DNA of 64,000 bases from Leptolyngbya sp. FACHB-261. Lineage in GTDB: Bacteria > Cyanobacteriota > Cyanobacteriia > FACHB-261. The notes beneath the pieces are model-generated. The model had not been told where the DNA came from. It searched no databases and saw only the letters and a list, made by a program, of their open reading frames with translations. Shown here in pieces: positions 32,597-52,199 of this stretch; position 1 is the stretch's first letter, and each line of letters begins with the position of its first letter. The stretch is taken from NCBI RefSeq assembly GCF_014696065.1, contig NZ_JACJPL010000016.1, positions 1 to 64,000 of the forward strand, read 5' to 3'. The position numbers and the translations under genes were made by a program.

Positions 32597-32833
32597 TTAG
32601 ACGATAGAGGTGGTTTTCTCTTGAGATTGGCAACTATAGACATGTAAGGTTTGCACACCCTGGCAATGGCTCAGCACTCGAAATTGCTGGTTGGATTTTG
32701 CCAGAGTCGCTGCAACTGGTTTTGACACTTCCTCAGACTTATCAGTCTGATCAGAAGCGTAATAAAAGCTGAAACCTAAGCGGGATAAGGGTTTCAAAAT
32801 TGGGATGTCACTCGATCCTAGAGGTTTTGTCAC
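32597..32833 (-). CDS. Small ORF between the iterons and rep, doubtful
   Basis: 78 codons starting inside the tandem iterons and ending 34 bp before the rep TTG. The product (…GFSFYYASDQTDKSEEVSKP…) has no recognised family. It could be a leader or copy-control peptide, or chance. Confidence 0.25.
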   Translation of the reverse strand: MTKPLGSSDIPILKPLSRLGFSFYYASDQTDKSEEVSKPVAATLAKSNQQFRVLSHCQGVQTLHVYSCQSQEKTTSIV

Positions 32834-32871
32834 TCGATCCTAGAGGTTTTGTCACTCGATCCTAGAGACAC
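32807..32871. repeat. Three tandem 22-bp iterons
   Basis: GTCACTCGATCCTAGAGG plus TTTT occurs at 32807, 32829 and 32851 with exact 22-bp spacing, two helical turns; the third copy changes after GAG. Typical of Rep-binding iterons. Confidence 0.85.
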
Positions 32872-33720
32872 CGTAATAATCTTGTAAGCTTTATGTGGTA
32901 AGGGTTTAGCTAGATTTTTTAAGTAATTTCGGGCTATTACACGAGACACATAGCTCCGTTTGCAAATTGAGGTATGCACGCCTAGGGTGCGTTCCTGAAG
33001 CTCGAACCAGTGAGCCACTTCAGCTTTGGTCTACCTAACCCTAGCTGTCACCCGATCCTAGAAGCTGCGTAATAATGTTCTATCCCAGAGATGCCAAGGG
33101 CTGAGCAGGCTTTCGGAAGGTAATTCTAAGTATTACACCAGAGCCTAAGTCTTAATTGCAGGCTGCTCCTGGGCTTGACCTTCCTAGGAGTTCTAGGATC
33201 AAGTGACAACCATTGGATTGAATTTGAGGTGTCACTCGATCCTAGAAAATTCGTAATAGTGCTGTAACCAAGGCACAGCAAGGGTTTGATAGGAATTCCT
33301 AGACCAATCTTAGGCTATTACGTTTGAGCCCTGGCCTCCATCTTGCTGCAGCTAGACCGGAGCAGACAGCATTCCCAAACTAGGTGGTGAACTAGCTAAG
33401 TGCGAGCTGTCACCAGATCCTAGAGGCTGCGTAATAATCTTGTAAACCAGCAACTGCAAGGGTTTGTTAAGTTTACCCAGGGTAGTTCAAGGCTATTACG
33501 CTGGTAACCCATTCTGCGCTGAATGCTAATTTGAGCCTATCAAGGTCATTGGGGCAGCTTTCCCCTCAACCCTACAGCAACTCCAAACTCGTCAAGTTGC
33601 AGTTGGGGTACTGAATCTGACCTGTCACTGGATTCTAGAGGCTGTGTAATAACCTTAAAAACTGGAAGTAGCAGAGGTTCAACAGAATTTTTTGAGGGAA
33701 ATTTAAACTATTACGTTGGA
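32807..33720. other. Probable plasmid replication origin: five iteron/dyad units
   Basis: The iteron core GTCAC-CGATCCTAGA recurs with small changes at 32851, 33047, 33231, 33409 and 33624 (178-215 bp apart) and once inverted at 33192-33207. After each iteron comes GTAATA (32872, 33069, 33251, 33430, 33646) and about 60 bp later TATTAC (32935, 33128, 33314, 33492, 33710), with AAGGGTTT-like sequence between. No large frame exists here. It lies between the rep operon and the 659-aa gene, both on the minus strand. Confidence 0.75.
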
Positions 33721-37687: not shown

Positions 37688-39329
37688 ACCTAGCTTATGG
37701 CATTGTCGAACGCATCAATGCCGTCATTCAGAACTATGACATTGTCCTGGCATCAGCATTGATGTGCGAGGTCATTCTCAAGCCGTCTTCGGCATCTTTC
37801 AGGGCGCTACTCCTGATGCAGAATCACGTCAGGCATTAGCACGAGTGCGAGAACCCGTCCCCCGCTTTGTCTGGGCAGCCCCTTTTGGTCCTGGCAAAAT
37901 CGGTAATGGCAGCTGCCATTATCAAGATGTTGCTATCTCCACAGCCAAAGGCATCAAGTACAACATTGCTCTGCTGAAGGAAGTGGACTTTGACCTGGAT
38001 GCTCAGAGCGATCCCATTACCCTGCGCACCTGGGCGAGGATGGCAGCCCGGGTCAACACCTCCATGTGGAACTATCGGGAGGAACTGCGCCGGGGCTTAG
38101 AAACCGAAGGGCATCAAGTGGCGATCGTCACAGCTGACTTGACCCAAATCCTCACCTCAGATTTCCTAGCTTTGTGTACAGAACTCTCAGACCTGTTGGG
38201 TAAGGAAGTGATTACCCAGGCGCTATTGCAAGACTTGAAGCAGGGGATACTGCAATTTCCAGGCTACGAGTATTTGGGCCGGCAACATGACCCAATCATA
38301 TGTGAACAGGTCAAGACCCATATTGTGGCAGTCCGCGATCAAAACAAACAGCAGGAGGCGATTGCCGTTGCTAGTGCCCCAGATATCACTGCGACTGAAT
38401 ATGAAACCCTGAAAGACCAGCGAGCCAAGACGTTAGAGGAGCGGCATGTCGAGCGCAAGCATGAACTGCAACGCCGCTACCCAACTGCTATCACTCCAGA
38501 ACTGAAACTTAAAGACGATGAGGGCTGGTATCCAAAGCTGCGCTTGCACTACTACCTGACGCACGACCCAGCGTTTGTCAGGTTCCGTGACCGCAAGGAA
38601 TGGCAGGGTCATATCGATCGCGGCACAGGCAAAGTGGCGCTACAAGATGTGCGGCTACTGACAGCACAGGTGGAAGCGTTACGAGGCCTGAGCCTCCTAT
38701 CCTTGCTGGATCCCACTCGTGAGGTAAGAGCAATAGACCCTGATGTGCAGCAGTTGGCTCGCTACTGCATGCAGTTCAGCAGGGATATTAAAACTCTCTT
38801 CGGGTTAACGATCACTGAGAAGATGAAACCGATCGAGGTCGTCCAAGCGCTGCTGAGCAGACTGGGGATTAAGTTAGCTTGTATCGGTCGAGATGTAGCA
38901 GATGACGGACGACGAGGGGGATTACGCGTCTACCAGTACCAGCCCCCAAGCGATGGTAGGGCAGCCATCTTCGCGCAGTGGCAGCAACAGGATGACCTTG
39001 CGCTCCAGGGGGAGCGAGCTGCCCAGACCGCTCTCTGCCCTGCACTAATTCCAACAGCTTCTGATCCACCCCCTGATATGTATGAAGTAAATCACTCAAC
39101 CAGTGGATTACGGCAAGCTGAAGCAACTTCTCAAACAGAACAGCGTAAGCTTCTCCCCTCAGTAAAGCTGGTGGTAGACCGGTTAGCCCAACCAGTCAAG
39201 CAAGCCTGTCACTCGGGAGTAATGCAAGTTAGTAATGCCTCTGCTCATCTAAAGCAATTGAGCGATCGTCCAGAACCTATCACCAACTTAGATGTAGTTC
39301 TCCCTCACCAGTTGGGCAATAGTTCTTAG
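37688..39329 (+). pseudogene. CyRepA1-type plasmid replication protein, C-terminal remnant
   Basis: The remnant opens AYGIVERINAVIQNYDIVL, shifts frame near 37750, and then reads GISIDVRGHSQAVFGIFQGA and QALARVREPVPRFVW (helicase motif VI region). Then come KIGNGSCHYQDVAIST and PITLRTWARMAARVNTSMWN, the signature of the large cyanobacterial CyRepA1/DUF3854 replication proteins. The rest runs intact for over 450 codons to 39327. The zinc-finger, primase and front helicase parts are gone. Orientation is opposite to the intact rep gene, so this is the scar of a second replicon. Confidence 0.75.
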
Positions 39330-39497: not shown

Positions 39498-42011
39498 CTA
39501 CTGGTTGCGTAGACTCTCCAGTTCCTGCTTGGTAAAAGGGTTCTTACCTGCCTCTAGGGCAGCGATCCAGCGCTGTCGTCGTGCCTTTCGTTCTTGATTG
39601 TCAGTCCAGGCAATAAATGCCTGGAAGTCTTCAATTGCTCCCTGAGTATTGCCAGTTAGTGCTCTGGCTAGGCCACGGCTGTTCCGAATCTCGCCATCCT
39701 TAGGGTCAGGAGCCACTGCTTTTTCGCAAGCGTCTAAGACTTCAGCCGCATGTCCAGACAAGCTGCCAAACCAACAAAGGCTGTCCCAATCCTGGGCAGA
39801 GATTTTGAGTGTGGGGTCTAGTTTCCGTGCCTCTGTGTAGGCTGCTAGAGCCTCTTCGATACTTCCACCTTCAACAAGTTTTTTTCCCTTCTCAAGTATG
39901 GCTGGGGCTGCCAATTGTCGTGCTTCTGCTTCTAGATTAAAAGTCAAGCTGGGATCCCACGTCATAGCTCTCCGGAGGGTACCAACTGCGCCCTTGACAT
40001 CGCCTGCTTTTGCTTGTGTTTCAGCTTCCTTCACCAGAAATGGTGCGGCCTCCAGCAGATTAGCCTGTGTTTGACAAACTCTTAGTGTTGCCAACTCTTG
40101 AGGATTGGAAATCAAGTAACCCTCAAGCCATTGGCAGCCCCGCGCTAGCAGCTTATCCAAATTGTCAAAAGGCCACACACGTGCAGTGCCATCAGCAGAA
40201 GCGGTGAGAATAGTCTGTCCATCGGGACTGAAGCTGGCACTCCAGACAGTGTCCTGATGCCCCTTAAGCTCAGCGAGCTGCTTGCCGGAGCGGTCCCAGA
40301 GGCGGGCCGTGTTATCCCCAGAAGCGGTGAGAATGGTCTGTCCATCGGGACTGAAGCTGGCACTAGTGACAGTGCCCTGATGCCCCTTGAGCTCAGCGAG
40401 CTGCTTGCCCGAGCGGTCCCAGAGGCGGGCAGTACCATCATCAGAAGCGGTGAGAATAGTCTGTCCATCGGGACTGAAGCTGGCACTAGTGACAGCGCTC
40501 TGATGCCCCTTAAGCTCAGCGAGCTGCTCGCCGGAGCGGTCCCAGAGGCGGGCCGTGTTGTCATAAGAAGCGGTGAGAATGGTCTGTCCATCGGGACTGA
40601 AGCTGGCACTAGTGACAGCGCTCTGATGCCCCTTGAGCTCAGCGAGCTGCTTGCCGGAGCGGTCCCAGAGGCGGGCCGTGTTGTCATAAGAAGCGGTGAG
40701 AATGGTCTGTCCATCGGAACTGAAGCTGGCACTCCAGACAGCGTCCTGATGCCCCTTGAGCTCAGCGAGCTGCTTGCCGGAGCGGTCCCAGAGGTGGGCC
40801 GTCTTGTCACGAGAAGCGGTGAGAATGGTCTGTCCATCGGGACTGAAGCTGGCACTGGTGACCCAGCCCTGATGCCCCTTAAGCTCAGCGAGCTGTTTAC
40901 CGGAGCGGTCCCAGAGGCGGGCCGTGTTGTCAGCAGAAGCAGTGAGAATGGTCTGTCCATCGGGACTGAAGCTGGCACTGTAGACAGGGCCCTGATGCCC
41001 CTTGAGTTGGTGTTCCTGAATGTCATTAAGGATGGTCTGCAGCGCCAATAGCGGAGTGGCTGTTGAATATTGTTCAAGTGACCTATTCTTGCCCAGCTCT
41101 TTCAGGGCTTGCCCAGCTCTCATCGCTGCTAGCAAGGCTTCCGACTGCTGAAACTGGAATTGCTGAAGTGCAGCTACGCCCTCCCGTTCTAGCCTTGTAA
41201 CTATTCGAGCTTCTTCCAGAGTGCGAAATGCCCAAACGGTCATCACCCCAACTACTGCGGCTATTGTGAGCGTCACCCCCAGCACTACTGATCCGAAGCG
41301 AATCATCCGCCCTGATTTCTGCGCAGTCTTCGCCAAGCGCTGATTGGCGTCCTCAGCCTCTCGGCTTTTGCTGATGTAGTTCTGCTGCTGCTCTGTGGGC
41401 TGGGGCTCCTTCTGGCTTGCCTGATTTAGCCACTGCTCCGCCTCTGCTAAGTCACTTCCCCGCAGCAAAAAGCTGTCATTGCGTCCCTTGCCGTCCCACT
41501 CCAGCGCCCGCACCAACAAGCGAGTATGCGCCCGCACATGAACTAAGTCAGTATCAATAGCTTGAATCAGTGCTTGGAAGGCACGGTCAAAGTCATCCTG
41601 CTCCTGGAAATACAGCCAGTTGTGCTTGGATAGCTCAGGATGGAGCTGCTGCGGATCAAACCCCTCCCTCCGCACAATCGGTACTAAGCGCTTATTGTGT
41701 CTAACCGAGTGATCGATCTCCCAGGTGCAAATTTCTGAGGCTACCGAGTCCGGGCTAATAACAAACACAAAGGTATTAGCCGCTTCAATTCCCGCCTCAA
41801 TCGCCTTCCGCCAGTCTGCTGTAAGTGGGATACTGTCCCAGTCCACCCAGGTATCTCGCTCACAGTTCCTTAGCGCTGCATGGAGCTTCTCCACAAACGC
41901 TTTATCCCGGCGCGAATAAGAGATAAAAACGTCAGTCCCAACACTTCGGGCTTGAGCGTCTAAGGTCGTCACAAAATGCTCCCAGTCCAGAAAAATCTCC
42001 AGGCTTGGCAC
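39498..42011 (-). CDS. TIR-transmembrane-WD40-TPR protein
   Basis: 837 aa. TIR domain at about 25-150: DVFISYSRRDKAFVEKLHAA, VDWDSIPLTADWRKAIEAGI, and FVFVISPDSVASEICTWEID, where Glu98 in CTWE occupies the NADase-type catalytic position. A transmembrane helix follows (FGSVVLGVTLTIAAVVGVMT, 236-261), then seven WD40 repeats of 41 residues (about 336-616) forming one propeller. The C-terminus has TPR-like helices (EEALAAYTEARKLDPTLKIS, AIEDFQAFIAW). Such proteins are thought to sense a ligand through the propeller and signal or kill through TIR. The WD repeats are almost identical to each other, a sign of recent expansion or homogenisation. Confidence 0.85.
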   Translation of the reverse strand: MPSLEIFLDWEHFVTTLDAQARSVGTDVFISYSRRDKAFVEKLHAALRNCERDTWVDWDSIPLTADWRKAIEAGIEAANTFVFVISPDSVASEICTWEIDHSVRHNKRLVPIVRREGFDPQQLHPELSKHNWLYFQEQDDFDRAFQALIQAIDTDLVHVRAHTRLLVRALEWDGKGRNDSFLLRGSDLAEAEQWLNQASQKEPQPTEQQQNYISKSREAEDANQRLAKTAQKSGRMIRFGSVVLGVTLTIAAVVGVMTVWAFRTLEEARIVTRLEREGVAALQQFQFQQSEALLAAMRAGQALKELGKNRSLEQYSTATPLLALQTILNDIQEHQLKGHQGPVYSASFSPDGQTILTASADNTARLWDRSGKQLAELKGHQGWVTSASFSPDGQTILTASRDKTAHLWDRSGKQLAELKGHQDAVWSASFSSDGQTILTASYDNTARLWDRSGKQLAELKGHQSAVTSASFSPDGQTILTASYDNTARLWDRSGEQLAELKGHQSAVTSASFSPDGQTILTASDDGTARLWDRSGKQLAELKGHQGTVTSASFSPDGQTILTASGDNTARLWDRSGKQLAELKGHQDTVWSASFSPDGQTILTASADGTARVWPFDNLDKLLARGCQWLEGYLISNPQELATLRVCQTQANLLEAAPFLVKEAETQAKAGDVKGAVGTLRRAMTWDPSLTFNLEAEARQLAAPAILEKGKKLVEGGSIEEALAAYTEARKLDPTLKISAQDWDSLCWFGSLSGHAAEVLDACEKAVAPDPKDGEIRNSRGLARALTGNTQGAIEDFQAFIAWTDNQERKARRQRWIAALEAGKNPFTKQELESLRNQ
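40165..41006 (-). repeat. Seven tandem 123-bp repeats encoding WD40 blades
   Basis: Each unit encodes LKGHQ-x-x-V-x-SASFSPDGQTILTAS-x-D-x-TA-x-LWDRSGKQLAE. Variation clusters at the two residues after GHQ, the residue after V, and the residues around the D after TAS, the positions on the propeller top. Between copies the DNA is nearly unchanged (CCATCGGGACTGAAGCTGGC recurs). Confidence 0.9.
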
Positions 42012-43418: not shown

Positions 43419-46400
43419 TTATATGATGGCCTGTCTACGCAACCTTCTGGGAGCCACATAACAGCCCAATCGAGTTGGCGTTCGATCGAGCATTTCCAAC
43501 GCAGAGCGTGTCTCTCTAAGATTCAAAGCAAGTAGCTGTTCAAACATCTGAAGACCAAGCTCACGGCATACGGGTTGGCGATGCAGCTTAATGGCGATTG
43601 TGGTTAGGCTTTCCGCTATAAATGCAGTAGATCGTGATGGATTTTTAAGTTCTGCACCTAGATCAATTAAACTTTTGCAGACTTCGGCTACAACTTCAGG
43701 ATAGTTATCAATCAGTTCTTCTGCTTCAAGAATTTCGGTCAAATCTCTGGCAGATTCCAAGAGCACGCTCTGATTTTTGCAGACTGCTCCAAGGACCTTC
43801 AACATTCCGCTGTCTAACTCAAAGTGATCACGGCTGCAATGAAAGACTTTTGCCACAGCATATTGAACAGATGTGGCGGAGGAAGAGGCAAGAGTGTAAA
43901 GAATTTTTGCCGCAATCGCCCGACATCTTCGTTGAGACCATAGATGACTTGCTGCATGAGCAAGACCGCAAAGAACTGATTCATTGTCCTGAGCAGCAAG
44001 GTGAGAATGAATCCTCTGAATTGACCATTCATCCTGATACTGAAGGTAGTGGATTAGCAATAATTCTCCATATGCTTGATGGGAGAAGTTGGAGTTATTA
44101 GACCAGAGTATCTCCAGCCAGCCTTGTGCCGCTTCTTTAGGTTCGAACCAGCCGATCGTGCGTGAGATAAAATAAAGTGCCCAGGGATATTGAAGAACTT
44201 CCGGGCAATTTTGAATAACTTGGTTAAAGAGCTTAGTTGCCTCAGTGCGATTGCCATTCAGGAGTGGTGGCATCCGTGTTAATATATCGCACCAAACTGC
44301 TGGATGAGGTTCCACACCTATGTGCGATTTGATAAACTTTGCCCAGCCTTCCAAATTCGGAGGGCTTTGCTTGAGGTACCCCTCAGCGATTGCCCGCACG
44401 ATATTACCTCTACCACCCGGAAGGATGTGTGAACCGCGAATACCAAAGAGGATGGGTGACCTTAGGTCAGAGCTTTGCTGCTCTTTACTTCTGTAGTGGT
44501 CTAACTCTGGTTGAGAATAGTTTGGCAACCAGCCTTCAAGCAGCGATAAAGAGGATTGTGGTAAGCCTTGATGTCGCTTAGCAATCTTTTCCAGAGCATG
44601 GGCGGCTTCAGAGCGAAAGTTCTCTGAAACGAAACCTTGCTGATCAAGCCCCTCAATGATATGAATTAAATCAATTGCTGGAAAATCAGTTCCAGCCAAG
44701 TCTTCTAGAGCGTCGCCCACGTAACTTTCATGCCGTTGAGGCTCCAATTGTGGAAGGATACGAATAAACCGTGATGGGTCATTCTTTACCAACTCGCCAA
44801 ATTCGCGAGACTGTTGGATTGCTCCACCTGCACGTGAACGGTCATCAAACCACTGACGTTGGGGATGGTTCCATTCTGTTTCGTCAGATAACTCATTGAA
44901 AAGACTTAACAAATGTTGATCTGATGCATGGCTCATCTCATTGCTAGTCATGCGGGGTCCAACGTTTTGAGCAATTGTTATACCGCTACTCTCATTCAGA
45001 TTAAACCAAGGGAGTGCGCGTTCCTCTTCCTCTTTCAACCGCCTTGCCTGGGGGCTCAAATATTCCTCAGGAATAGCTTGTAGGAGAGACAATCGATGTT
45101 CTCGGTTGTATGTGCGATATCTACGACGAATGTCCACATCCCTGTCACCCTGGATCTGCCAGTAGGTAAACTCCTGAATTGTCTGCTCAAGTTGCTCTCT
45201 ATCCTTTGGTTGGAGGTGAGGAAAGATAGCTGCAATCAGTTTCTCTGTTTCTCTATGGCGACCGCTACCCATCTGGCTACCCAAACTGAATCGCCTCGGA
45301 TCCGCCAACAGATAGTTCGAAATCCTTGTAGCTTCCTCTGAAGCGACTACCTCGAGCCCACATGCTACTAACTGATGAACAATTAATAGGTCTGAATTTT
45401 CATTTTGCTCAACAAAGTTTAAAAAGGTAGACTTATCCTGTTTCGCTAACTTAGTGATAGCTGTGAGCAAAGACTGAATAATTTTGCTTCTAGAAAACTC
45501 GAAACCACCCACTTGATCCCAGCGATAACTGAGCATATCAGAGTTTGTATCGTATAGAATGTGCTGAATGAGATCTGTGAACCAGGGCCACATTAACTCC
45601 AAAAAGCTTTGCGGATGTACTTCGGCAATTTTCTCAATTTCGTAAAAATTGCTTTCGTTTTCAAGTAGGGCTTTCAATGGACTCAATGGAGCATGTCGAT
45701 AAGCATGAACTGTGCGTTGGACTTCATCGACATCTGACGGCAAGACTGGGGGCATCATCTTACTAGCCTCGGTTGCCTGTGTTAATAAGCAATCCAAGTG
45801 ACCACGGATAACTCTCGCAGCCTGATTAGGTAAAACCTCAGCTATCCTTTCAGCAATCGCAGCAACACTATGCCAATCAACGTTAGAACGTTGAACCACC
45901 TGCTGTATTAGCCGAACTCTTTCAGAAGTCCATTGCCCAATATCCCAAATGACTCGGATGATCAGGAAATCGTATGTCTTATCATCCAACCAATACTCTT
46001 CCAACAGGTTCCAGATATCCTCTGGCGCGGAATTTGCCGCTGCTGCCAGAAATGGAGAACAGTACATCGCCTGCTCCACTGGTTTCTCTAACCATTGGGT
46101 AAATTCAGGGCGATCGCGCAAACGTTTGAACCAGCCAGAACTCCCGGTCGTGGCATCCAAAACTTTGATTCCTTCTACTTCTGAGTTGAGTAGAGGAATA
46201 AGTAGCCTAGCTTCAACCAAATTAGGACTAGATTGCGCTCCCACAAACTCAATCAGTAGACTGCGAATGTGATGCCTTATCTGCTGCTGTGAGGTTTGCA
46301 GCAGAGTGGTTAATTCCTTCTGATACTGTTGAGTAGCTGTGCCACGTAAATAGTTCAGACCTCTTAATAAAGTAGGTCGAATGAATAGACCATCCTGTCG

Positions 46401-48173
46401 CTCTAGAACAAGATCTGTCAGGGATTGTGAACCACTAGCAAAGGCACGGGCAAGGGTATGGTCATAGTAAGTTTGGTGACGAAATCCGATGTTGCCATTT
46501 TCTGGATTGGTCATTAGTAGACCAGCATGCTCCAACGCTCGGCAGATTTCTGGAGATGCGTCAGCAATCGCATTTGGTACCCACAGGACTTCTTCTTTAG
46601 TCATGCGGTCAGCAAGCCTTTCTAGAAATGCCACACACTTTTCAGCTTCTGGGTGCTTCTTCACCCGTTCCTCCCACAGGCGGTCTAATAGCCTCTGAGA
46701 GGATGTAAAAATGTCTCCTAGTTGGGCAACATCAAGAAAAACATTCAGGTGCAGTGGATTCTGTAATAGCTCTCGGAGGGTCTCTCCCATACTTGCAGGT
46801 TGATGTCCCGCTGCTTCCAGTATTGGGGAAATAGTTTCCCAGGCAGGAAGGCTCAAGAACAATTGCTTGATTTCTGCCAGTCGAGCAAATTGAGAACCGT
46901 AGCGAAATTCAAATTCCCGACAGGTAGCAATAATATGAACGTTTTTACTTCCAGACAACCTCTGAGTTAGAGACAGAAGTAGGTTCAACCGTTGGGATTT
47001 ACGATCAAGTAGCTCAGAAACAGCGTCTAACTGATCGATCAGAACAACAATTTTCTCTTTGCTAGCAATTGCATGAACGGTATCACTGGGAGGTAACTCA
47101 AGATGCAAGTCAAACTGTAAATCCTCAATGGTATTGATGGCTCCGTTTAACTGGTCAGCTTTAATTGCCAAAACTGAATAGCCTTGTATGACTAGCTCAT
47201 TTCCTAAGGTTGCCATCAATGCTGACTTACCCGATCCAGGAACACCTAGAACGATCGTTGTAGATGATTCTTCCACTTTGATACGGTTCAGCAACTCGTC
47301 CAATTCAGAACGTTTGATTTGCTGCTTGTTACTGAGTGTATGCTGCCAACTCAGCAACCCTTTTGATGCATCTGCCACATTCTGTTTGAGTTTGGTGTAT
47401 TTAGCCGAACTTGAACTGAGAAGAGAACCAGCTTCTAATTTTGCCAAAATTGCAAAGGCAAAGGCACTTGCGTGTTGAGCTGCAACTATGCTTGCTGTGG
47501 TAGGGCCGGTAGCGGCATCCTGGCCGATCACATGGGTGATGCCTCGAATAATTAGAGCATTAGTGTCAGCATTGGCATGGACTGCCTTTAGGACACCATA
47601 CCCTGTGACATCTACCGCCAAAGCATCTCCGTGGTTCGCTTGTAAAAGCTGATAGACTGCAGATTGATTGGAAGTAATCTCCTTCTCACCTGCCGCGATC
47701 GCTCCGACAAAAACTTTTGGTACCCAGTTTGGCTTTTCCCTCTGGATGCGCTCTAACCAATCCTCTCGCTTCGCTTCTGCTTTCGCACGCTGTTCCAGCA
47801 CATAACTTGCCAGCTCTAGTTTCGGTGTCGGTAAAAAGCCAGATGCTGTTACCTTACCAGTCTCATAACTATAGACCTTGATCGCAGCGACAACATCTGC
47901 CGCAGTAACATCCTTCAATCCAGCCGCTACCCCGACTGACAGAACTACGTTGGGCCGCCAATGTGCAATTGCCCGTTCTGTCTCCATCGCTGCATCAGAA
48001 TTTTCTAAATTGACTTGGGCGACCACGACCTTCCAAGTTTTTCCGTTTGCAGAAAATTGCCCCGATTCATAGACCGTACCTTGCGGATGCGTTTCCTCTG
48101 CAAGATGTATCAAATGAGTACAAACAGCATGGTACTCATCAGGAAGAGAGGTTAGGATGACTGCGCAAGGCAT
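43419..48173 (-). CDS. Giant PNP-like/STAND NTPase protein
   Basis: 1584 aa from the ATG at 48173, aligned with the start of the paralogue at 52199 (MPCAVILT versus MPSAVILT); a TTG six bases earlier is possible. Residues 1-245 are a nucleoside-phosphorylase (PNP_UDP_1) domain: AVILTSLPDEYHAVCTH, NVVLSVGVAAGLKDVT, VFVGAIAAGEKEI. Its active site looks dead: V187-D-V-T190 replaces VEME, and RGITHVIG (His214) replaces RGISD. Residues about 285-560 are a STAND-type P-loop NTPase: VLGVPGSGKSAL, VVLIDQLDAVSEL, HIIATCREFEFR, then a winged-helix-like segment. Over 1000 residues of helical repeats follow, presumably the sensor. Known PNP-STAND proteins are predicted immune switches. Confidence 0.85.
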   Translation of the reverse strand: MPCAVILTSLPDEYHAVCTHLIHLAEETHPQGTVYESGQFSANGKTWKVVVAQVNLENSDAAMETERAIAHWRPNVVLSVGVAAGLKDVTAADVVAAIKVYSYETGKVTASGFLPTPKLELASYVLEQRAKAEAKREDWLERIQREKPNWVPKVFVGAIAAGEKEITSNQSAVYQLLQANHGDALAVDVTGYGVLKAVHANADTNALIIRGITHVIGQDAATGPTTASIVAAQHASAFAFAILAKLEAGSLLSSSSAKYTKLKQNVADASKGLLSWQHTLSNKQQIKRSELDELLNRIKVEESSTTIVLGVPGSGKSALMATLGNELVIQGYSVLAIKADQLNGAINTIEDLQFDLHLELPPSDTVHAIASKEKIVVLIDQLDAVSELLDRKSQRLNLLLSLTQRLSGSKNVHIIATCREFEFRYGSQFARLAEIKQLFLSLPAWETISPILEAAGHQPASMGETLRELLQNPLHLNVFLDVAQLGDIFTSSQRLLDRLWEERVKKHPEAEKCVAFLERLADRMTKEEVLWVPNAIADASPEICRALEHAGLLMTNPENGNIGFRHQTYYDHTLARAFASGSQSLTDLVLERQDGLFIRPTLLRGLNYLRGTATQQYQKELTTLLQTSQQQIRHHIRSLLIEFVGAQSSPNLVEARLLIPLLNSEVEGIKVLDATTGSSGWFKRLRDRPEFTQWLEKPVEQAMYCSPFLAAAANSAPEDIWNLLEEYWLDDKTYDFLIIRVIWDIGQWTSERVRLIQQVVQRSNVDWHSVAAIAERIAEVLPNQAARVIRGHLDCLLTQATEASKMMPPVLPSDVDEVQRTVHAYRHAPLSPLKALLENESNFYEIEKIAEVHPQSFLELMWPWFTDLIQHILYDTNSDMLSYRWDQVGGFEFSRSKIIQSLLTAITKLAKQDKSTFLNFVEQNENSDLLIVHQLVACGLEVVASEEATRISNYLLADPRRFSLGSQMGSGRHRETEKLIAAIFPHLQPKDREQLEQTIQEFTYWQIQGDRDVDIRRRYRTYNREHRLSLLQAIPEEYLSPQARRLKEEEERALPWFNLNESSGITIAQNVGPRMTSNEMSHASDQHLLSLFNELSDETEWNHPQRQWFDDRSRAGGAIQQSREFGELVKNDPSRFIRILPQLEPQRHESYVGDALEDLAGTDFPAIDLIHIIEGLDQQGFVSENFRSEAAHALEKIAKRHQGLPQSSLSLLEGWLPNYSQPELDHYRSKEQQSSDLRSPILFGIRGSHILPGGRGNIVRAIAEGYLKQSPPNLEGWAKFIKSHIGVEPHPAVWCDILTRMPPLLNGNRTEATKLFNQVIQNCPEVLQYPWALYFISRTIGWFEPKEAAQGWLEILWSNNSNFSHQAYGELLLIHYLQYQDEWSIQRIHSHLAAQDNESVLCGLAHAASHLWSQRRCRAIAAKILYTLASSSATSVQYAVAKVFHCSRDHFELDSGMLKVLGAVCKNQSVLLESARDLTEILEAEELIDNYPEVVAEVCKSLIDLGAELKNPSRSTAFIAESLTTIAIKLHRQPVCRELGLQMFEQLLALNLRETRSALEMLDRTPTRLGCYVAPRRLRRQAII

Positions 48174-48598
48174 TTGCAAATACCTTTATCACTGGCTATC
48201 ATCTTATTTTGGCAAGCCTGTAGAGATTCGTCCACTCGTAGTCATAATTGTTCCTACTAGGGAGTATTTTGGAGATGTTTCATAGTCCCTCGAGTTTAAA
48301 GCATAAGTCAGTCTACAGAACACAATTTACAATCATGTTCCAAAGCCAAACCCCGTACCAAGTGGGCGGATCTTTTTGAGAAAAACAGCGAATAGAAGAA
48401 AGAGATATGGAGCGAAGTGGGAGGTCTAACAAATTAGAGACTAGCGGAAAATCAAAAACTTGATTTAAGTATTTTCACCTCTTTGCCAGGATGTTTTGAA
48501 TCTCCCAACAAGCAAGATTGAAGCCTTTCTTTTTTTTCCGGATAATTATCCTATTGATGGTAAGTACAGAATGAGTACCTACCATCAACATTCTTCGT
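48174..48598. other. Intergenic region between PNP-STAND and the truncated 70-codon gene
   Basis: About 425 bp of AT-rich sequence holding the promoters of two divergent genes. A 14-bp inverted repeat TTGATGGTAAGTAC/GTACCTACCATCAA (48554-48588, 13 of 14 paired, 7-base loop) lies 10 bp before the plus-strand ATG and could be an operator. Confidence 0.5.
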
Positions 48599-50900: not shown

Positions 50901-52199
50901 TTATCTTGGAAGATTATTTCTTAGATTATGAATGTAATCAATCATTTCCAGTTTAATATCTTCTGAATAACGTTTAGGCACAGCATCTTTGAGGTTTTGT
51001 AGAGCTAATGTGTAAAATCTACCTTCTTCAGGTTTAAATGTTCTCCTTTCTTCCAAGGTAAATAGGCTTCCCTCTTTCTTAAGAAATGAATATATGGGCG
51101 GTTGATCCAAGAGCTTTCTGTGTTTTGTTAGTAAAGAGTTTTGAATATTTTCTAAATATTTCTCAAATTCCCAGTTAATTCGATTTTCTAAACTCTTATT
51201 ACTTTTTACTACCCGCTTTAAATTAGGGCAATCCTCAAAGGCATCATTAACAATCCTTTGTGCTAGACTACTTCGACTAGTAGATAGCCAATCCAATACT
51301 TCTTTCAGAGTAGGACTAATATAAGGTTCCAAATGCTGATCAAGCTGAGATAGTTTGTATCGCTTCTGCTCAATATTTTCCAATGGCCGAGATTTGTCTG
51401 TCCTTAAAAACTCCTGCGTTTCCAGGGCTGTCATTGATTCTGACCTATTATCTAAGGAAAACTTTGCTAAAACCTCAAAAGTAAAAGCACTGGCATGATG
51501 AGAAGCCTTCTCCTGCCGAACCTGTTCAGATTCTACAGAATCGTCATTTTTGCCGTCAATCAAATCGGAAATTCCACGGATCACGAGCGCCTTGATGTCT
51601 GGGTAAGCAAAGACTGCACTCAGGAAGCCAAAACTCTCCATCTCAACAGCGATCGCGTCATTGTAACTTGCCCTAATGAACTTGAAAACGTCTGACTGTT
51701 TGGAAGAAATAACTTTCTCCCCAGCAGCAATGGGAGCCACAAACACATGGGGCCGAGAAGTTAAACTACTAGATAGCCGTTGTAACCACTCTCCTTTTCT
51801 CGCCTCCGATTTAGCTCTTTGCACCAGTGCATAAGCAGACTGCCCTAATGCAGGTCGGGTGAAGAATTGATTGTCTACCTTACCTGACTCATAGCCGTAG
51901 ACCTTTGTTGCTGCGACTACATCACCGATCGCAACGTCTTTGATCCCTCCAGCAATCCCAACAAACAAAAGGACGTCAGGTCTGAAGTATGCGATCGCCC
52001 GTTCTGCTTCCACGGCTGCTCCCGCATTACCTGCTCCCACTTCGGCAATCCCAACTTCCCATACCTGTCCGTTCGCAACGAATTTCCCCCGCTCGTAGAT
52101 TGTTCCCTGGGGATGCATTTTTTCCTGGAGATCCGTCAGATGAGTACGAACAGCCGAGTATTCAACGGATAGAGCAGTCAATATCACTGCACTAGGCAT
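50901..52199 (-). CDS. Stand-alone nucleoside phosphorylase-like protein with C-terminal helical domain
   Basis: 432 aa. N-terminal PNP_UDP_1 domain with all catalytic signatures: AVILTALSVEYSAVRTH (Glu13), LLFVGIAGGIKDVAIGDVV, PIAAGEKVI, AVEMESFGFLSAV (Glu188), ALVIRGISDLIDGK (Asp212). It should cleave a nucleoside or related glycoside. Residues about 255-432 are a different, helical domain (QKRYKLSQLDQHLEPYISPT, LTKHRKLLDQPPIYSFLKKE) that I do not recognise, possibly a partner-recognition or effector-associated domain. It is a paralogue of the PNP-like domain in the giant STAND protein. Divergent from a membrane protein. Confidence 0.8.
   Translation of the reverse strand: MPSAVILTALSVEYSAVRTHLTDLQEKMHPQGTIYERGKFVANGQVWEVGIAEVGAGNAGAAVEAERAIAYFRPDVLLFVGIAGGIKDVAIGDVVAATKVYGYESGKVDNQFFTRPALGQSAYALVQRAKSEARKGEWLQRLSSSLTSRPHVFVAPIAAGEKVISSKQSDVFKFIRASYNDAIAVEMESFGFLSAVFAYPDIKALVIRGISDLIDGKNDDSVESEQVRQEKASHHASAFTFEVLAKFSLDNRSESMTALETQEFLRTDKSRPLENIEQKRYKLSQLDQHLEPYISPTLKEVLDWLSTSRSSLAQRIVNDAFEDCPNLKRVVKSNKSLENRINWEFEKYLENIQNSLLTKHRKLLDQPPIYSFLKKEGSLFTLEERRTFKPEEGRFYTLALQNLKDAVPKRYSEDIKLEMIDYIHNLRNNLPR

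Follow-up and report, generated by a model that had tools for sequence, protein, structure and literature searches.

What is the function of the repeat-rich region that separates two large genes in Leptolyngbya sp. FACHB-261? The window that we analysed comprises bases 1-64000 of a 117.8-kb contig. Within it, the repeats lie between the gene for a 1263-aa protein (P0001; 28772-32563, - strand) and the gene for a 659-aa protein (P0002; 33751-35730, - strand). We think it probable that the region serves a cyanobacterial plasmid as an iteron-type theta origin and that P0002 is its initiator, with the core of the protein acting on the iterons and its XRE domain acting on the arms of the dyads.

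The region contains two kinds of repeated elements. First, a 17-bp iteron core (TGTCACTCGATCCTAGA) occurs eight times, seven times in direct orientation and once inverted, and a repeat search that allowed up to four mismatches found no further copies elsewhere in the 64-kb window. Three of the direct copies are in tandem (32806-32866, + strand; starts at 32806, 32828, and 32850, 22 bp apart). The other four, also on the + strand, are at 33046-33062 (unit 2), 33230-33246 (unit 3), 33408-33424 (unit 4), and 33623-33639 (unit 5). Second, there are five dyads, or pairs of GTAATA and TATTAC arms, that start 62–63 bp apart: 32873/32935, 33069/33131, 33253/33316, 33431/33494, and 33646/33709. These dyads extend over 32873-32940 (unit 1, with its centre at about 32886-32907), 33069-33136, 33253-33321, 33431-33499, and 33646-33714. 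The centre of each unit, which is similar to AAGGGTTT, belongs to a conserved palindrome, AAAGCYTTAC-nnn-GTAWRGCTTT. The five units of iteron plus dyad span 32806-33714, with 196, 184, 178, and 215 bp from one unit to the next, and the end of the P0002 gene is 31 bp further on.

The initial annotation had described these five units and had called the region an origin. The units are real: pairs of GTAATA and TATTAC with this spacing are absent from the rest of the window, and in 500 dinucleotide-shuffled versions of the region, any one 6-mer gave zero, one, or (once) two pairs, as against the five observed. The inventory was incomplete, though. It lacked the inverted iteron (33192-33208, - strand), and it lacked a sixth, partial unit at 32759-32800 (- strand), between the tandem iterons and the P0001 gene. 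Sequence and comparison with relatives show that this half-unit has the central palindrome and a single GTAATA arm, while the second arm is missing. Next to it, CAGACTTATCAGTCTGATCAG (32734-32754) is a possible DNA-unwinding region; its position equals that of the GATC/GATTAATTAGATC stretches of relatives. The position of this GATC-containing stretch near the P0001 gene is conserved; its AT content is unexceptional. A scan for DnaA boxes (TTWTNCACA) gave one-mismatch matches only and no clear box, and an Rfam search of the region gave no credible match. We also considered that the units might be terminators or promoters, but predicted matches were no more frequent than in shuffles.

The two flanking genes had been said to face the region from two sides. 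In fact both are on the - strand, and the P0001 gene is transcribed away from the putative origin. P0001 appears to be a primase-helicase type of replication protein: it has a zinc-finger-like cysteine motif, a P-loop-like motif, and an internal HTH, its profile matches (phrog_47, DNA primase and HTH) are weak, and its plasmid homologues are annotated as PriCT-2 or DUF3854. It had no match above the cut-off to the CyRepA1 model (NF042913). The GC skew had been suggested as a check on the origin. The cumulative minimum for the window is near 55–57 kb, away from the repeats, but this criterion is uninformative here because the contig is incomplete (its ends do not overlap) and mosaic.

We noticed other traces of replication genes on this contig. 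A 521-aa CyRepA1-like fragment (37764-39329, + strand), which covers profile positions 265–593 only, is a second, truncated replication gene. Outside the window, at 83745-83981 of the contig (- strand), the C-terminal part of the 1263-aa rep is present once more as a fragment (78% identical), which suggests the fusion or decay of replicons. Also, the replicon genes are beside defence-like cargo: a TIR-WD40 protein (39498-42011, - strand), a phosphorylase-STAND NTPase (43419-48179, - strand), and a second protein with a phosphorylase domain (50901-52199, - strand).

A scan with a profile of the P0002 family yielded 80 named cyanobacterial loci, and in 57 of them at least one full unit lies downstream of the P0002 homologue. 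Of 65 scanned loci, 54 have tandem repeats after the arm, mostly with a 22-bp period. Plasmids of Allocoleopsis, Nostoc, and Calothrix share an order of elements from the P0002 homologue towards rep: an arm, an A-rich stretch, the palindrome, and another arm come first, then three iterons of 22 bp, followed by a half-unit and a stretch that contains GATC, although the arrangement varies somewhat. Most loci have one full unit and some have two or three; the five in our window are the most that we saw. So the design, which had seemed more elaborate than usual, is indeed expanded at this locus, but its basic architecture is widespread and no one-off. The rep genes downstream of the module belong to several primase/helicase families (CyRepA1/DUF3854, PriCT_2, and Prim-Pol+DUF3987), so the cassette of P0002 plus module pairs with different types of rep. 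Regions upstream of distant P0001 homologues had no comparable array; the module accompanies the P0002 gene instead. The profile found no unit at 23 of the 80 loci, including the entire clade L092-L102. (The homologues in this clade have the helix VDRSLITRWVKGER, and some of these loci carry TTCTTATGTA inverted repeats instead.) The viral contigs that we searched had no relative of P0002.

Because the same module sits between a P0002 homologue and a primase/helicase rep in many cyanobacterial plasmids, the identification of the region as a putative origin is well supported by comparison, as the initial annotation had it. Could the array instead be a centromere or a recombination or resolution site, with P0002 as an adaptor and the origin elsewhere? 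Dispersed repeated units do look like centromere arrays, and there are fragments of tyrosine recombinases nearby. But most relatives have just one unit with three iterons, and P0002 and rep always lie on either side of it; also, there was no ParA or ParM gene among the subset of window proteins that we scanned. We consider this explanation very unlikely.

What reads the dyads? In an alignment of 33 units, the arm sequence varies between replicons while its mirror complementarity is kept: 94% of cells are paired, and both sides have changed at six of the eight pairs. In contrast, only 66% of the inner stem is paired. (If the partners are slid by one column, the pairing of the whole structure falls from 78% to 48–49%.) The variation in the arms is centred on two positions within TTGTnnTA. 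We compared these bases to the recognition helix of the C-terminal domain of P0002 (about residues 582–647), which is a helix-turn-helix of the XRE type. Pfam's HTH_3 was found in 51 of 53 P0002 homologues; P0002 itself did not match at E = 0.01, though its structural model aligns to XRE structures. The residue that follows Ser-Gln in the helix matches the base at one position of the arm: lysine or arginine with G in 22 of 22 cases, asparagine with A in 21 of 22, proline with T in 2 of 2 (one of them our window), and glutamine with C in 2 of 2. The sole exception comes from L156, a short contig whose unit is degenerate, and both types of arm occur in its sister, L162. At a second position of the helix, lysine goes with G in 8 of 8 cases, all from one clade. 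The rules of protein-DNA contact predict the pairing of lysine with G and of asparagine with A. On a tree of the core domain there were five independent switches between asparagine and lysine or arginine; four or five of these were matched by the arm and none were opposed (sign test, p = 0.0625, which is the minimum that five pairs can reach). Since the residue in the recognition helix predicts the base in the arm, the XRE domain of P0002 probably uses each arm as a half-site. The suggestion that the dyads might bind a second factor should thus be turned around: the apparent reader of the dyads is P0002, which is itself likely to be the main initiator.

Alternatively, the dyads could be hairpins for single-strand initiation, like the ssi sites of RSF1010: the iterons would open the DNA, the dyads would fold, and the 1263-aa primase would start there. 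The arms are always complementary, the downstream gene is of the primase-helicase type, and the units from contigs C30 and C33 of the same genome and from locus L143 fold far better than shuffled sequences. But three of the five units in the window, as well as the unit from Nostoc, do not outperform shuffled sequences in folding, with only units 3 and 4 beating most of them. Also, the variation lies mainly at two positions of the arm whose bases follow the XRE residue, rather than being distributed along the stem, and the inner stem is poorly paired. These results weaken the idea that the dyads extrude, and we rejected a cruciform or single-stranded hairpin as the main reading; that they serve as initiation hairpins seems improbable to us.

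The central palindrome behaves differently from the arms. It is conserved (e.g., 32886-32907 in the window) across replicons whose arms and iterons differ, and hence it is probably read by some factor that is common to all of these replicons.

Other contigs of the same genome allow the two flanking genes to be compared. C30 and C33 each have a related module with a single full dyad, and their arms (TTGTTATA/TATAACAA in C30 and TTGTAGTAA/TTACTACAA in C33) are unlike those of the window. The primase-helicase of C30 is 92% identical to P0001, yet its P0002 homologue has just 33% identity, and both the iterons and the arms differ. Therefore, site specificity tracks P0002 and not P0001. The genome carries at least four further related modules or remnants (on contigs C30, C33, C3, and C6). 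On C3, we noticed that TGTCAGARCCGTCGGG-type repeats form a large array; they occur in both orientations, and the arms are TGTTTTA/TAAAACA.

The core of P0002 (about residues 220–560) also points to initiation. In structural alignments with VIA-align, the AlphaFold model of P0002 (pLDDT 75.7) matched domains 2–3 of RctB, the initiator of Vibrio cholerae chromosome 2 (5tbf/5ubf; Z = 11.3 over 243 amino acids, for residues 220–556), and RepE54 (Z of about 7.4). Foldseek with this model gave no significant match, but with a second, independent model, that of a homologue from Nostoc, Foldseek ranked RctB first (E = 2.1e-4), and structural alignment gave Z = 11.3 over 252 amino acids. The match is remote, with 10–11% identity and an rmsd of 4–6 Å, and involves two predicted models. 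A profile search of PDB sequences listed no RctB chain, and nearly all of the matches were HTH domains, so the kinship of P0002 and RctB is of fold only. The models suggest that the core has the tandem winged-helix fold of RctB- and RepE-type initiators. Because this predicted initiator fold and the domain that appears to read the dyads sit in one protein, P0002 is likely to be the main initiator, rather than the 1263-aa "rep".

We also considered that P0002 might be a transcription factor similar to CnfR/PatB, so that the repeats would be an array of operators that control the primase-helicase gene, and the 1263-aa protein would be the real initiator. The region is upstream of rep, and CyRepA1-type proteins are demonstrated replication proteins (PMC10899382, PMC9978351). 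Furthermore, chromosomal homologues of P0002 in related genomes (L172:2597-4198 and L173:2867-4471, each on a single large contig) have the architecture described for CnfR (PMC8510180): the shared core is preceded by a 4Fe-4S ferredoxin domain at the N-terminus and followed by an XRE domain at the C-terminus. The core of this nif regulator appears to be homologous to the core of the plasmid initiator. However, a domain scan found no ferredoxin domain in P0002, whose core matches RctB and RepE; tandem 22-bp iterons are a hallmark of initiator binding; and rep genes with 92% identity are found alongside different iterons and arms. Overall, a regulatory role of this kind seems unlikely.

Our preferred reading, in which P0002 initiates replication at this region, draws on what was computed: the anatomy of the region and its conservation, the mirrored variation of the arms, the match of residue and base, and the fold of the core. 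Judging from its fold, the RctB/RepE-like tandem winged-helix core would bind the 22-bp iterons. The C-terminal, 434-like XRE domain would bind the arms of the dyads (half-sites of the TTGTnnTA type, here GTAATA), as the covariation suggests. In each dyad, the two inverted arms, about 62 bp or six helical turns apart, would flank the conserved palindrome. The core origin would be 32734-32870, that is, the tandem iterons, the half-unit, and the GATC-containing stretch, which adjoin the primase-helicase gene. The strands may open near the GATC stretch, where P0001 would be loaded. The four additional units are likely to hold initiator molecules or to bridge them, which would limit copy number.

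More tentatively, P0002 could represent a large and unannotated family of cyanobacterial plasmid initiators, in which positive control (iterons, winged helices) and negative control (dyads, XRE) are split within one protein and a residue-to-base code sets plasmid compatibility; CnfR/PatB, which shares the core, might then be an initiator that turned into a transcription factor, or the reverse. The replication proteins of large cyanobacterial plasmids have been described as poorly known (PMC10899382), and neither this origin nor an RctB-like protein of cyanobacterial plasmids was described in the papers that our literature search covered, few of which were from subscription journals. The module and the candidate initiator family would make origins recognizable in dozens of cyanobacterial plasmids. 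The compatibility of co-resident plasmids might be predicted from two or three residues and bases, and the module could be a source of parts for cyanobacterial vectors. The shared core also suggests that plasmid initiation and the control of nitrogenase genes are linked in evolution.

Among known systems, the CnfR/PatB activators of nitrogenase resemble P0002 in having a homologous core and a C-terminal XRE domain, but they are chromosomal transcription factors with a ferredoxin N-terminus. The CyRepA1 replicons such as pSYSA of Synechocystis are similar in that some plasmids with the P0002 module have CyRepA1-type rep genes; P0001 itself, in contrast, does not match the CyRepA1 model, and the origin of pSYSA was described with sense and antisense RNAs, in a paper that does not mention iterons (PMC9978351). 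Iteron plasmids with RepE- or pi-type initiators (F and R6K) share the tandem iterons of about 22 bp by an opening region and the winged-helix initiator, while our locus adds an XRE domain with dyads and a cognate primase-helicase gene and has no clear DnaA box. RctB, which has been described as a structural homologue of RepE, reads 12-mers that promote initiation and 39-mers that restrain it, and binding to the 39-mers has been placed in its C-terminal region (PMC5395669). Like RctB and ori2, P0002 and its putative origin combine a tandem winged-helix core (domains 2–3 of RctB) with two kinds of origin site. They differ in that the sequences have no detectable similarity, the second site here is an inverted pair of putative half-sites for the XRE domain, and the helicase/primase is encoded by the plasmid. 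By analogy, iterons and dyads that appear to be read by separate domains may work like the two types of site of RctB, which is a likeness in design and does not imply membership in the same family.
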